A stretch of DNA of 36,951 nucleotides from a virus, in IMG/VR virus record IMGVR_UViG_3300025652_000216, positions 1-36,951 of that record, one strand, 5' to 3'. Numbering within the stretch: position 1 is the stretch's first letter; each line of letters opens with the position of its first letter. Shown here in pieces: positions 30,770 to 34,899 of this stretch. The notes beneath the pieces were generated by a model. The model did not search any database. It was not told the DNA's origin and saw nothing but the letters and a program-made list of their open reading frames with translations. A program made the position numbers and the translations under genes.

Positions 30770-31148
30770 ATTTATTCTCCAGGTACAACTCCTTCCATTT
30801 CTTAATATGACGTTTTGCGGCGGCATTTGCGACAGCCATTTGATCTTCGGACAACAGCCCCCATGCAGACTTTGTTATTTCCTCTCCAGCCCCGCACCCA
30901 AGCGCTGCCGCCGCCTGCCCAAGCCATGCAACTTGATTTATAGATGCATTTGTAAAATTTGACTCACATGAATTTGGCCATGACGATATGACAGCTCCCA
31001 TACAATTATCGAACATATCTATATCCCGCATAAATTCTGAACACTTTGACACCATATTCTTTTTGTCAACACAAAGACTAGACGACCACATCGCACTACT
31101 AAATTCCTCGCACTTTGAAAAGTGGTGAAAAACCCTAGTTATTCTCAT
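30762..31148 (-). CDS. Unknown protein inserted between ibrB and ibrA
   Basis: A 128-residue protein beginning MRITRVFHHFSKCEEFSSAMW, with six Cys spread in the first 70 residues and a second half NTSINQVAWLGQAAAALGCG-like (ASINQVAWLGQAAAALGCGA) then TKSAWGLLSEDQMAVANAAA, typical of small phage proteins that accompany IbrA/IbrB. A very good GGAGG lies six bases before the ATG. It overlaps ibrB by 14 bases and ibrA by eight, so the three are co-translated. The function is unknown; it may be a third component of the system. Confidence 0.7.
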   Translation of the reverse strand: MRITRVFHHFSKCEEFSSAMWSSSLCVDKKNMVSKCSEFMRDIDMFDNCMGAVISSWPNSCESNFTNASINQVAWLGQAAAALGCGAGEEITKSAWGLLSEDQMAVANAAAKRHIKKWKELYLENKYA

Positions 31149-31809
31149 TGATTTCCTCCCCTACAAAAATATCATTACCCATGTCATCAAATGATTCCGC
31201 CTCCCACGATTCACTAAAATCAGAATCCTTAAACGCGAAAGCAAGCCCCTTAACCTGCTGCAAACGAAGAACCTCATCAGGCTCCATTCCAAGCTCTTTT
31301 GCTATCTTTTCGTCACTCCAGAATCGGCGCTTTAGCTCAACAACAATTTCAGACATTGCTGCAACGCTATGCTTTCCTCTTGCTCTGTTGTGCCTGATTG
31401 TGGCCGCCATACGGTCGTTTCTGTCATGCCTGTCGGTAGACAAAGAAACAACAGGAAGATAACCCATAACCATTGCCTGTACTATTTCAGACTCCTTTCC
31501 TACCCTATGGCGATGGAATCCATCAACAACTTCATATCCATTATTTGGCCATGTTACAATTGGCTGCGTGTAGCCATCAGCCTCAATTGATCGCTCCAAA
31601 AGCTTCATTTCTGGTGGAGCCACACTGTTAGGGTTGTAGTCATTAGCATGCACACTTTCATTTTTAACCCACTCAACAAAATCAACAGGACATGATTTGA
31701 ATGGGCTTAGCTCATGAATCCTCTTTCTTATTAAATTTATTGCCTCAACCCTCTCCCCAAACTCTAGCTCAGATATAAAGTCTAATCTTTTAATAATTTC
31801 ACTAATCAT
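31135..31809 (-). CDS. ibrB: IbrB-like ParB-fold protein
   Basis: A 224-residue protein of the ParB/sulfiredoxin fold. The key region is residues 53-105: VHANDYNPNSVAPPEMKLLE, ADGYTQPIVTW, and YEVVDGFHRHRVG, where DGFHR is the ParB-box motif that in related proteins binds nucleotide. A second conserved segment DRNDRMAATIRHNRARGKHSV follows, then a helix-turn-helix-like MSEIVVELKRRFWSDEKIAKELGMEPDEVLRLQ. This is the usual IbrB layout. It precedes its partner gene ibrA by one intervening gene. The region is AT-richer than the late genes by eye, suggesting independent acquisition. The start at 31809 has AAGGGG eight bases upstream. Confidence 0.83.
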   Translation of the reverse strand: MISEIIKRLDFISELEFGERVEAINLIRKRIHELSPFKSCPVDFVEWVKNESVHANDYNPNSVAPPEMKLLERSIEADGYTQPIVTWPNNGYEVVDGFHRHRVGKESEIVQAMVMGYLPVVSLSTDRHDRNDRMAATIRHNRARGKHSVAAMSEIVVELKRRFWSDEKIAKELGMEPDEVLRLQQVKGLAFAFKDSDFSESWEAESFDDMGNDIFVGEEINENN

Positions 31810-31889
31810 CGCGAAAACCCCTTGGCCTTAGTTTTTAACTTTTTTAGTTTTGCTTACTTTTTAGATGTTTTGTTTTTATTTACACTTAT
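31810..31889 (-). promoter_or_regulatory. AT-rich spacer before the ibr cassette
   Basis: 80 bases of very AT-rich sequence between the P-like and ibrB genes, containing AAGTGTAAA (forward 31879-31887), the fourth copy of the motif seen upstream of other local transcripts. There are long A/T runs but no clear -10 or terminator hairpin. A cassette-specific promoter is possible. Confidence 0.3.
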
Positions 31890-32444
31890 TTACATTCTAC
31901 TAATCCTCTCAAGTCGTTTTAAGTCGTCAAGCTCTGCCTGTGTGGGCGCGGCGGTCTTTGGTTTATCGTCTAGCATTGCCAATAGGGCGCTAGTCTGGCT
32001 AATTCCTTGCTGGTAGCGTTTTGTCTTGTATTCTGGTGGCTCAGGTAGGGCAACTGGCAAAACCTTGTGAGCACCAGCCTGTACGCCTTCCTCTCGCTTG
32101 ATCTGCGCGGTGCCGTCACACACTCCAATTATTTTCGGGATTGTTAGGAATCGGTAGTCAGGGTGATTGGCCGCCATCAACTTTCGCAGTGCCACAAATC
32201 CAGAATCTATCTGCTCGTTGGTCATGTAGCGGATCTGGTTTGCATAGTCACGTTTTGTAATCCGCTCAACGTTTGCGTCTGGTATCGATTGGTCGTAAAA
32301 CCGCTGGTCGGTCAATTTCATCTTTGCGAAAAAGTACGAAATTGTGTCTTTCTCGTAATCAGCTAATGGCAATTGCGGCTTCTGCTCAACTGGTGCGCGC
32401 GATACCGTGTAACCAATCAAGCCTTTTTTGTATTCAGTTTCCAT
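31890..32444 (-). CDS. Replication protein P-like helicase loader
   Basis: A 184-residue protein directly following the O-like initiator, in the lambda O-P order. The core YFFAKMKLTDQRFYDQSIPD, then ERITKRDYANQIRYMTNEQI and RKLMAANHPDYRFLTIPKII is the P-like pattern (helical, with Y-A-x-Q and a Pro-containing FLTIP segment), and the C-terminus is charged and partly coiled (ELDDLKRLERISRM). Such proteins deliver host DnaB to the initiator complex. There is no Walker motif, so it is not a DnaC-type ATPase. The ATG at 32444 overlaps the O stop (TGATG). Confidence 0.68.
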   Translation of the reverse strand: METEYKKGLIGYTVSRAPVEQKPQLPLADYEKDTISYFFAKMKLTDQRFYDQSIPDANVERITKRDYANQIRYMTNEQIDSGFVALRKLMAANHPDYRFLTIPKIIGVCDGTAQIKREEGVQAGAHKVLPVALPEPPEYKTKRYQQGISQTSALLAMLDDKPKTAAPTQAELDDLKRLERISRM

Positions 32445-33229
32445 CAAAAATCCCTCGCTTTCTCAATGTCAAAGGTGGTTGCGAATCGTTCGGATGATTT
32501 CTCAGCCGCTGTTTTGTATTGCTGCCCTGCGGGTTGTTTTGAGTTTTGCATCCACTGCAACTCAAAGCCTCGCCAGTTTCGAGTAACGCATTCTGCCAGG
32601 CACTGATCCACTGTGTAGCCAAATGTTGTCGCCTTGCGCAGCTCTGAGCTAAATCGATTAATCACGGTTTGGCTAACATTGGCCTTAAGCCGTTTTCTCA
32701 TCGAGAGCCAGTCAGTCATTACTTGATCGCTTGGCATTGCTGGCCATCCAGAATAATCGAGCTCAACTATTTTTTTAGCAGGCTTGTCCTGCTGAGCCGT
32801 AGGCGCAATATCTTTTATATTCTTATCATTCTTATCATTCTTGTATGTGGCGGTTTGCTGGCTAGGTGCTGGTGACTTGCTGGCGGTTTGCTGGTCATCT
32901 GCTGGTGATTCTGTTTGGTACTCTTGCCAGTTAGTTATTGATATTATTGAGAATTTTGCCATTGATTTTATGGTTATCATTTTAAGGTTTTTCATCACAT
33001 CAAGTGCAGCTCGCACCTTGTTCTCACTAACGCCAATTTCAGACGAAAACTTGACTCTACCGAACACTAATTGACCCGATGAAAGCTTAACTATCTGGCG
33101 CCCCACAACGAACTCAGACGCGCTATGCTGCGCCCTAAGCATCAAGTGAACCCATACAGCCAGATACTCAGGGTGCGCCGCTATGGCGCTATCCTTGGTG
33201 GCTCTGTGTAGCTTTATCCAGCCGCTCAT
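32444..33229 (-). CDS. Replication initiator, O-like
   Basis: A 261-residue protein with two parts. The N-terminal 105 residues (GWIKLHRATKDSAIAAHPEY, QLVFGRVKFSSEIGVSENKV, DVMKNLKMITIKS, ISITNWQEYQ) form the winged-helix domain typical of phage O/DnaD-type initiators. Residues 107-140 are a Gln/Ser/Pro linker with an 11-residue repeat (DQQTASKSPAP / SQQTAT) and KNDKNDKN, encoded by DNA repeats. The C-terminal domain (WPAMPSDQVMTDWLSMRKRL, RFSSELRKATTFGYTVDQCLAEC, RNWRGFELQWM) is the DnaD/DnaB2-like part that binds the helicase loader. Neighbours: the P-like gene downstream; ATGA overlap upstream. Confidence 0.8.
   Translation of the reverse strand: MSGWIKLHRATKDSAIAAHPEYLAVWVHLMLRAQHSASEFVVGRQIVKLSSGQLVFGRVKFSSEIGVSENKVRAALDVMKNLKMITIKSMAKFSIISITNWQEYQTESPADDQQTASKSPAPSQQTATYKNDKNDKNIKDIAPTAQQDKPAKKIVELDYSGWPAMPSDQVMTDWLSMRKRLKANVSQTVINRFSSELRKATTFGYTVDQCLAECVTRNWRGFELQWMQNSKQPAGQQYKTAAEKSSERFATTFDIEKARDF
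32814..32908 (-). repeat. Tandem repeats in the O-like gene: candidate replication origin
   Basis: Two 28-bp copies (32848-32875 and 32881-32908) share tggcggtttgctgg and tgctggtga with a period of 33 bases. Next to them, at 32814-32846, is an AT-rich stretch with the 10-base repeat tcttatcatt. Iterons beside an AT-rich region inside an O gene are the layout of the lambda origin. Confidence 0.5.
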
Positions 33230-33579
33230 GCAGTCACCCTAATTCGCATCTTCTTTGCGAATGAATATTTTTTACCACTATTGTTTTTAATCTTCTTGGT
33301 CATTTCTGAGGTTTTCAGGTGATCTGAAAATTGATACCAGTCACCAGAAAAATCCTCGCTTCTTGCCATCTTGAACAATGCGCGGCTCATCAAAAAATAA
33401 ATATCCCGAAGTCCGGTTTTAAGCGAATAAAGTCCGCGCTTCTGTGCTCTCTGAGCAAAAATTATCAGCATCTGAGGGTTGCGCATTGCCTCCCTGTAAA
33501 TCAGGGTCACATAGAGAGTTCGTGCGCGCCGAAGGTTTTTACCTTCAAGGGTGAATTTCTTTCTTGATTGCTCAAGCAT
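33226..33579 (-). CDS. Unknown 117-residue basic protein before the initiator gene
   Basis: A strongly basic protein starting MLEQSRKKFTLEGKNLRRAR, helical through the middle (MLIIFAQRAQKRGLYSLKTG, IYFLMSRALFKMARSEDF), ending SGKKYSFAKKMRIRVTA. The ATG at 33579 overlaps the end of the Rha/KilAC gene by eight bases; an earlier in-frame start further inside that gene is less likely. No family is recognised; the composition suggests DNA or RNA binding. It sits between the antirepressor-like gene and the initiator. Confidence 0.6.
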   Translation of the reverse strand: MLEQSRKKFTLEGKNLRRARTLYVTLIYREAMRNPQMLIIFAQRAQKRGLYSLKTGLRDIYFLMSRALFKMARSEDFSGDWYQFSDHLKTSEMTKKIKNNSGKKYSFAKKMRIRVTA

Positions 33580-34240
33580 GATTATTTGCCCACAATTTAT
33601 CGATCCACTCAACGCCTTTTGGTTTGAATTTAGCTGTAATTTTGCTTATATTGTTCTTTTCCCACGTGATAACAATGAATCGCCCAGCGTCAATATGGGT
33701 TTGATATACCATCCACTCATCACCAAGCCTGTACATAATTCTTCTATTTTGAAGAAATAGGCGAAATTCAGGCTCTTTGGCCTTCAGCAGCTTGCACACT
33801 TGGCGAAAGCCTAGGTTTCCAGTGGATTCCACGTAACGCTCGACAAACTCAACCGCGGGCTTCTGGTGCTCGATTTGAGCGGCTTGCGATTGGATTACTT
33901 CTTGCTGATCCGCGGCAAGTCTTAGCGCCGCGGCGAATGATTGTGGGATTGCTTGATGGTTGCCTGACTCTAGCTCTTGCCAGCGGTCAACAAGTGCCGC
34001 GGTAAACTCAGGAGAAAGGCGGGCCACAAGGAAGATTGAATCGCGCTTGTTTAGGTTATACTCGGTGTAAGTATTCCCGCGGTGGATAAAATCTAACGGC
34101 TGAAGTTCAGCGGTTAAAAGTTGATCATTATCTAGCGATAGGATTACCGCGGTGACGTTCTTATGAAGCTTGCCAGTCATTTCGGCAATTTCGCGAGAAG
34201 ACATAGTCAAAACGGTTTTATCTTGAAGAATTTGAAGCAT
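33572..34240 (-). CDS. Rha/KilAC-type regulator (antirepressor-like)
   Basis: A 222-residue two-domain protein. Residues 1-85 match the Rha regulatory domain (TMSSREIAEMTGKLHKNVTAV, YTEYNLNKRDSIFLVARLSPEFTAALVDRWQELE). Residues 115-218 match the KilA-C antirepressor domain (SQAAQIEHQKPAVEFVERYV, GFRQVCKLLKAKEPEFRLFL, YRLGDEWMVYQTHIDAGRF). Such proteins bind and modulate repressors or other DNA-bound factors. The start at 34240 is supported by AAGGGC eight bases upstream, a site located within a long hairpin. No CI-type repressor gene is in this window, so its target is unknown. Confidence 0.85.
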   Translation of the reverse strand: MLQILQDKTVLTMSSREIAEMTGKLHKNVTAVILSLDNDQLLTAELQPLDFIHRGNTYTEYNLNKRDSIFLVARLSPEFTAALVDRWQELESGNHQAIPQSFAAALRLAADQQEVIQSQAAQIEHQKPAVEFVERYVESTGNLGFRQVCKLLKAKEPEFRLFLQNRRIMYRLGDEWMVYQTHIDAGRFIVITWEKNNISKITAKFKPKGVEWIDKLWANNHA

Positions 34241-34330
34241 AAAAAAGCCCTTAAAAGTTGACGGTGGTTAAGACCGGACGATACAGAGGGAGTCATAAAC
34301 TCGTCTCGGTCGCGTCAACTTTTAAAGGCT
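34241..34330 (-). terminator. Long terminator-like hairpin abutting the Rha start codon
   Basis: The 18-bp outer stem ends in GGGC followed by six T and then ATG on the minus strand. As drawn, it is an intrinsic terminator whose U-run touches the start codon and whose stem hides the ribosome-binding site. Confidence 0.7.
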
Positions 34331-34385
34331 CTTAACTCACTCTGTAAATAAAATCCTTCACCACAAAGGATACGACTATTGCCGC
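34241..34385 (-). ncRNA. Structured leader RNA or terminated small RNA upstream of the Rha-like gene
   Basis: From the promoter at 34392-34419 the minus-strand transcript has three parts. First, a small hairpin ATCCTT/AAGGAT (34353-34371). Second, an 18-bp helix (34313-34330 with 34246-34263; one G-U wobble) topped by a 10-bp stem with one bulged A (34300-34310 with 34271-34280) and a 19-nt loop. Third, U6 then the ATG of the Rha-like gene. The loop segment 34282-34293 is complementary to 34335-34346 at 11 of 12 positions, allowing a pseudoknot. The helix contains the ribosome-binding site (AAGGG). It may be a terminator/attenuator controlling the gene or the 3' end of a roughly 145-nt small RNA. 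Confidence 0.65.
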
Positions 34386-34419
34386 CCGAGCATTATAGCA
34401 GATACTCGGGGGCGGTCAA
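34382..34419 (-). promoter_or_regulatory. Strong sigma70 promoter with overlapping dyad operator
   Basis: Minus strand: -35 TTGACC (34414-34419), 16 bases, TGC then -10 TATAAT (34392-34397): consensus -10 with extended element. A dyad ccgcccgag (34382-34390) / ctcgggggcgg (34405-34415) straddles the -10, as a repressor operator would. It drives the Rha leader leftwards. Confidence 0.75.
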
Positions 34420-34422
34420 ATG

Positions 34423-34899
34423 TCAAACGCCAACTATCTGCGCTATGAATTTGCATTTGATGTAATGGCCCTTGTTTTTGTGGCCGTCCGGTAGCGCCGC
34501 GTTACCGTCCATTGCCTCCTTTAGTGCCGCTTCCATTGCCTGATCGAGAATTTCTGACTTATTGCCACGGATCGCACACGTAAAGTGAAAGTCGAAAGTG
34601 TCCAGCTTCTCGCCGCGCTTCTCGGTTTCGTGCACGACTGTCATTTGCACGTCCCACGTGAACTCAGTTTTGGTGATCCACTGGCTACAGGTGCGCCACA
34701 TCTCACCAGCAACCAGGCGCTGGGTTGGATTGGCATGACTTATACCGGTATCGGTGATGTCGCCATTTTCCGCGAAGGGGTCGCTATCGTCCCATTTTAG
34801 GATAAAACCCTTCATACCAAGCCGCGCCCGCTTGTTGTACTCGGCAATTTTCCGCTTATCATTGCAGCGCTTTTTACGGTTTATCATCTGCGCAGCCAT
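34423..34899 (-). CDS. Unknown 158-residue protein
   Basis: Starts at the ATG at 34899, overlapping the stop of the HTH gene (TGATG). The N-terminus is very basic (MAAQMINRKKRCNDKRKIAEYNKRARLGMKG); the remainder is mixed alpha/beta (FTWDVQMTVVHETEKRGEK, FDFHFTCAIRGNKSEILDQA, KNKGHYIKCKFIAQIVGV). No domain is recognised. The basic N-terminus could bind nucleic acid. It ends four bases before the strong promoter of the Rha transcript. Confidence 0.62.
   Translation of the reverse strand: MAAQMINRKKRCNDKRKIAEYNKRARLGMKGFILKWDDSDPFAENGDITDTGISHANPTQRLVAGEMWRTCSQWITKTEFTWDVQMTVVHETEKRGEKLDTFDFHFTCAIRGNKSEILDQAMEAALKEAMDGNAALPDGHKNKGHYIKCKFIAQIVGV

Follow-up and report, generated by a model that had tools for sequence, protein, structure and literature searches.

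A family of phage leader RNAs with two predicted long-range pairings around an intrinsic terminator

Comparative analysis of phage leaders established that positions 34390-34241 on the minus strand of the window (the whole stretch of viral DNA analysed, 36,951 nucleotides) specify an RNA that belongs to a hitherto undescribed family in phages. The same RNA was found in a further 15 phages, including several cultured ones such as the Pseudomonas phages Orisa01, Orisa02, Orisa03, Orimi01, AH02 and HU1. In the anatomy common to the family, a promoter is followed by the small hairpin II, a linker and the long hairpin III, which is an intrinsic terminator, and a gene begins shortly after it. Selection on the RNA fold is strongly supported, independently of the first reading of the sequence. 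By a slight balance of probability, we infer that the RNA acts in cis to attenuate the gene behind it. The family is described in no library and is carried by cultured phages, so that it can be tested at once.

Organization of the locus and fold of the leader

The order on the minus strand of 34419-34238 is promoter, leader of about 145 nt, U6 and the ATG of a 222-aa gene. The features, all on the minus strand, are as follows.

34392-34419, minus: sigma-70 promoter TTGACC-16-TATAAT with extended -10 (TG before the -10); 11 of 12 matches, mean of shuffles 0.3
34410-34405 and 34390-34385, minus: dyad CCCGAG/CTCGGG flanking the -10, present in the sequence
34372-34385, minus: stem I, a small hairpin GCGGC-AATA-GUCGU in the fold; variable among members, missing in L477
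34353-34371, minus: stem II, AUCCUU-UGUGGUG-AAGGAU, a covarying stem whose conserved 7-nt loop holds a PK1 strand
34360-34364, minus: 5' strand of PK1, GUGGU, in the loop of stem II; partner 34268-34264
34335-34346, minus: 5' strand of PK2, in the linker, UACAGAGUGAGU; 11 of 12 positions complementary to 34293-34282
34313-34333, minus: 5' arm of the lower stem (terminator stem) of hairpin III in the minimum free energy (MFE) fold
34272-34311, minus: upper arm and apical loop of hairpin III in the fold
34282-34293, minus: 3' strand of PK2, in the apical loop, ACUCCCUCUGUA, complementary to the linker
34264-34268, minus: 3' strand of PK1, ACCAC, on the 3' side of the internal loop; partner of the stem II loop
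34243-34263, minus: 3' arm of the lower stem of hairpin III, containing the rha ribosome-binding site AAGGG (34252-34248)
34241-34246, minus: U6 tract completing the intrinsic terminator and abutting the ATG (34240-34238)
33572-34240, minus: gene of 222 aa with Rha (PF09669, E 2.4e-11) and KilAC (PF03374, E 2.7e-20) matches

Folding of the leader (34390-34241, minus strand) gave an MFE of -54.5 kcal/mol, against -36.0 +/- 3.6 for shuffled sequences (z -5.1; 0 of 200 shuffles as good). The long helix comprises 21 pairs in the MFE fold (34333-34313 with 34263-34243), slightly more than the 18 bp given in the initial annotation. This stem passes directly into U6, the arrangement of a stable stem and U-run by which an intrinsic terminator is recognized, and the upper stem is formed by 5+5 bp around a 19-nt loop. 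The same annotation had described a near-consensus promoter overlapped by a dyad, a highly structured leader with a terminator-like helix at the start codon, a second 10-bp stem with a 19-nt loop, six U right before the ATG and AAGGG inside the helix, and all of these were confirmed. Hairpin III was not listed by a simple terminator scan of the window because that scan allows loops of 3-8 nt only. No tandem repeats were detected at 34200-34500. The CCCGAG/CTCGGG dyad around the -10 (34385-34410) could be an operator; CCCGAG is seen again in L002, L003 and L160, in the apical loop of their extra 5' hairpin.

Members of the family

Members were collected through relatives of the Rha protein, DNA patterns, blastn and covariance models. 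The window leader had no blastn match among phages, plasmids or E. coli because the family diverges too fast, and an exact-stem pattern scan gave no match. Leaders of the Rha relatives L002, L003 and L043 showed the same layout in other letters. DNA patterns derived from these three led to L370, L375, L387, L472, L477, L489 and L435; most matches of the pattern scans were due to chance and were dropped after folding. Covariance model R1 led to L160, and the same models pointed to phage Orisa03, from which blastn led to Orisa01, Orisa02, Orimi01, AH02 and HU1. The leaders of Orisa01 and Orisa02 are identical to that of Orisa03, and 16 distinct members were counted with the window and the truncated L043 included; the membership of L435, Orisa03, Orimi01, AH02 and HU1 was assigned partly or wholly from PK1 and PK2 read by eye and not from model score.

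All 16 members carry U6-7, and in 15 of them a start codon lies within about 20 nt of it (the exception is L435, whose gene is not clear); these features were partly selected in the scan-found members, since the pattern scans required a U-run and several also an ATG and a fixed distance, while the window, L002, L003, L043, L160, Orisa03, Orimi01, AH02 and HU1 were chosen without a demand for U-run or ATG. Inspection revealed promoter-like hexamers just 5' of the RNA in most complete homologues. About four members (window, L160, L472 and L477) have a purine-rich ribosome site within the 3' arm; in most members the site lies 3' of the terminator. The window RNA itself has the pairing of the hairpin II loop, the linker-apical pairing, the U-run and the close gene start by which a member of the new family is recognized.

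No Rfam 15 family matched the window RNA, either at gathering score or at E up to 1, in agreement with the initial annotation, which knew of no RNA family with this layout; nothing fitting was found in open-licence papers. Searches with models R1 and R2 of a first set of 23 bacterial genomes and of about 1,550 sampled ones (batches of 369, 395, 392 and 399) gave no copy and no real member, with strict filters for the large batches and with an R2 model that misses part of the Pseudomonas form. Weak matches near E 0.03-0.1 in bacterial genomes were not accepted as members. A pattern of the Pseudomonas form had no match in 25 genomes.

Conservation of the fold

Alignment of six members without the window contained 34 pairs, of which 99.5% were formed and 13 were changed on both sides. 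Its covariation was 0.376, compared with 0.160 +/- 0.025 in shuffles and at most 0.084 with slid partners. A model trained without the window recovered the window RNA with 53 bits (E 2.9e-10) as the only match in 36,951 bases. In the ten-member alignment, which was fitted to the structure, covariation reached 0.721 versus 0.223, and 22 of 28 pairs were changed on both sides. All five model pairs of stem II were changed on both sides (alignment A4), as were 15 of the 19 pairs aligned for the lower stem of hairpin III. The fold is kept across members though almost every letter has changed, which shows selection on the fold itself. The initial annotation had proposed a search for covarying homologues as a check on its reading: covariation was present, and the pairing of loop with linker was kept.

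The long-range pairings PK1 and PK2

In PK2 the linker pairs with the apical region, or upper arm, of hairpin III. In the window (UACAGAGuGAGU:ACUCcCUCUGUA) positions 34293-34282 pair with 34346-34335 at 11 of 12 positions, growing to 13 pairs in the duplex fold, and the complementarity is above chance in the window sequence alone (p about 0.001-0.005). This is the apical loop-to-upstream pairing noted in the initial annotation, and it is conserved in homologues with entirely different sequences, namely AGCUAAAA:UUUUAGCU in L002, UAUGAC:GUCAUA in L370, CAAAGC:GCUUUG in L375, GCAAGGUG:CACCUUGC in L472, UAAACAGUGG:CCACUGUUUA in L477 and GGAUCGACGGC:GCCGUCGAUCC in Orisa03. PK2 amounts to about 20 pairs in AH02, and CUAAA:UUUAG of Orimi01 is replaced by CCAAA:UUUGG in HU1, a compensated change. 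Taken alone, it is weak in L003, L489 and Orimi01. The combined test over 14 members gave a Fisher p of 5e-14, which overstates independence given the kinship among members (L043 and L387 are close relatives, and Orisa03, AH02, Orimi01 and HU1 are of shared ancestry); the register of the PK pairing tests was set by hand.

A second conserved pairing, PK1, was missed by the initial annotation. Here the loop of hairpin II pairs with the bases just ahead of the 3' arm of hairpin III (34364-34360 with 34268-34264 in the window). Every complete member has 5-8 Watson-Crick pairs, and its variants are fully compensated: GUGGU:ACCAC, GUGGC:GCCAC, GUGGAAC:GUUCCAC, GUGAGAC:GUCUCAC and UUUGAGAC:GUCUCAAA. 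CCACC is near-invariant in most members and is lost in HU1 with the PK1 pairing retained, so that selection is on the pairing and not on the letters. The spacing from the 3' strand of PK1 (PK1b) to the U-run is near-constant, 16-19 nt, with 22 nt in Orimi01 and HU1.

For the RNA that still lacks its 3' arm, PK2 is predicted with P 0.98 (window) and 1.00 (Orisa03), and PK1 is formed too. PK2 was absent from the predicted pre-3'-arm fold of most group-1 members (L003, L370, L375 and L387). In group 1 both PK strands are displayed in small hairpin loops, that of PK2 being a 7-8-nt loop on a conserved closing stem.

Genes behind the RNA

A Rha/KilAC gene lies behind the RNA in six members (window, L002, L003, L043, L160 and L472), with the record ending near in L160 and L043 and L160 scored for Rha only. 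Elsewhere the gene behind encodes an SF2 helicase (L387), a T5orf172 protein (L375), an annotated HNH endonuclease (AH02) or a protein with a weak AP2 match (L477), and the genes of the remaining members are of no known type. Among the loci obtained with the Rha query, the RNA was found in 4 of 160 and was absent from 156. These varied genes, together with the rarity at Rha loci, indicate that the RNA is a portable module and not part of the Rha gene, and the tie to an antirepressor gene made in the initial annotation did not hold.

A replication block (e.g. a DnaD-like loader) follows in the window, L002, L003, L370 and L387. In the window the block behind rha (31135-33229) carries a DnaD-like helicase loader and a ParB-like protein, and the same DnaD-like/ParB-like block is found in L387 behind a different first gene, that of the SF2 helicase.

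Proposed mode of action

The order along the RNA is PK1a, PK2a, terminator 5' arm, PK2b, PK1b, terminator 3' arm, U-run and start codon, and the gene start lies 0 to about 20 nt past the U-run across the family. Most likely the RNA is an attenuator that would set termination and, in about four members, also how far the ribosome site is exposed. PK2 lies enclosed by PK1, and both could form as long as RNA polymerase still covers the terminator 3' arm. Once this arm is released, hairpin III would close and transcription would stop, giving a compact terminated RNA of roughly 145-220 nt; alternatively, the PK1/PK2 form would delay the closure of hairpin III, and the polymerase would read into the gene. 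The choice between the two outcomes might be set by polymerase speed, a protein or a ligand. Where the 3' arm holds the ribosome site, as in the window, the read-through form would expose this site too. Hairpin III closing afterwards would displace PK1 and PK2, or would coexist with them if bent at the internal loop.

PK2 and hairpin III need not exclude each other, since the bend at the internal loop would allow coexistence. Coexistence is favoured by the near-constant spacing between PK1b and the U-run and by the loop display of group 1, where a PK2 strand in a 7-8-nt loop on a conserved stem suits an all-coexisting fold rather than a switch; a switch is favoured by the four members whose ribosome site falls in the 3' arm.

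We counted for the attenuator the promoter and terminator bracketing the RNA, the close start codon, the covariation, the recovery of the window by a model trained without it, the conservation of PK1 and PK2, their predicted early formation in the window and Orisa03 and the ribosome site in the 3' arm of about four members, and against it the group-1 members without predicted early PK2, the location of the ribosome site mostly past the terminator and the weak PK2 of some members. As in attenuators and riboswitch expression platforms, an intrinsic terminator lies between promoter and gene with candidate alternative pairings ahead of it and, in some members, a ribosome site in the 3' arm; unlike those systems, there is here no known aptamer, leader peptide or protein site, and two pseudoknot-type contacts embrace the terminator. 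By the tests run, the RNA, which in its presumed working is like an attenuator, is no member of the C4, put or type III antitoxin RNAs or of the Rfam families.

Tentatively, and with more doubt than confidence, the family may consist of phage riboregulators of a new class. In these, two long-range pairings, one nested in the other, would enclose the terminator 5' arm, so that one folding decision would set termination and ribosome-site exposure, the whole serving as a portable control module before changing early genes. The regulators known where early phage gene blocks begin are mostly proteins; such RNAs would provide RNA-based control there, and also a compact example from nature of a terminator that is locked by a pair of pseudoknots.

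Alternative explanations

The main product might instead be a free small RNA, i.e. the terminated, doubly pseudoknotted RNA working in trans or having a structural or protein-binding role, with read-through incidental. The RNA has its own near-consensus promoter and a strong terminator, folds compactly with two tertiary contacts and stays while the gene behind it varies. We regard this as less likely: the family has no conserved unpaired target-binding sequence, the PK strands differ between phages, no 12-nt complement was found elsewhere in the window genome and nearly all members have the gene start only a short distance past the U-run. A similar arrangement of promoter, pseudoknotted RNA, terminator and then gene is found in type III toxin-antitoxin RNAs (ToxI, AbiF-type), whereas this family has neither tandem repeats nor a constant toxin gene.

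It is quite improbable that the RNA is a processive antiterminator similar to HK022 put or EAR, which would bind RNA polymerase and carry it past early-operon terminators. HK022 put suppresses downstream termination via the zinc-binding domain of the RNA polymerase beta' subunit (PMC9378689). Put and the present RNA are both structured RNAs directly after an early phage promoter with, in several members here, a neighbouring hairpin pair: stems I and II are 0-1 nt apart, as the put stems are close. The RNA also precedes replication genes in the five members with the replication block. Against this, put has no integral terminator and no PK1 or PK2, while here the terminator itself is within the conserved pairings and stem I is variable and missing in L477. 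Reading and folding of the HK022 putL and putR intervals (AF069308) revealed no UGUGGYG hairpin and no like sequence. Identity with put, prompted by the 1-nt gap between stems I and II, was thus unsupported by the HK022 sequences.

A plain intrinsic terminator or insulator with complementarity by chance is very improbable; a hairpin and U-run would suffice for termination, but divergent phages preserve both PK1 and PK2 through compensating changes.

Still more improbable is an antisense immunity RNA like P1 C4 or P4 CI, directed against superinfecting phages of the same type. In its favour, complementary segments come after small hairpins in front of an antirepressor-type gene, and PK2 is type-specific. 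C4 is a processed RNA that silences a downstream gene in trans. As in the C4 antisense RNA of phage P1 (c4-icd-ant operon), the leader has complementary segments just 5' of an early antirepressor-type gene (P1 annotation). There is, however, no sequence match with C4, and in P1 the target sites are outside a terminator, whereas here the partner segments are within the terminator hairpin and genes other than antirepressors also follow. The C4 covariance model (RF01695) gave no match at E <= 1 in 34200-34460 and none at E <= 10 in the records of L002, L003, L043 and L004. Against immunity also stand the lack of a copy among the matches accepted in the about 1,550 sampled bacterial genomes and the prediction that Orionvirus members are virulent (PMC11256456).

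A DNA-level element (protein-binding palindrome, origin or recombination site) is the least credible explanation, as the long inverted repeat and the second, partial copy in AH02 are outweighed by the G-U pairs retained in the stem (column 47 with 169, alignment A4), which argue for RNA and not DNA, and by the strand-specific promoter, U-run and pseudoknots.

Other observations

The second copy in AH02 lies behind the HNH gene (record positions 22043-21972, minus strand; L497:2161-2232). It comprises the 3' half with the terminator and is most like HU1; the arrangement looks as if a leader-plus-HNH cassette had been inserted ahead of an older leader. The annotated small ORF AH02_28 in MZ501271.1 (22565-22693) overlaps the RNA and is probably no gene. 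A box like TTGATTATACAAATGAGGTG is repeated before several successive short genes in L003 (2855-3500) and L002 (3150-3180) and looks like a repeated promoter or ribosome-site box.
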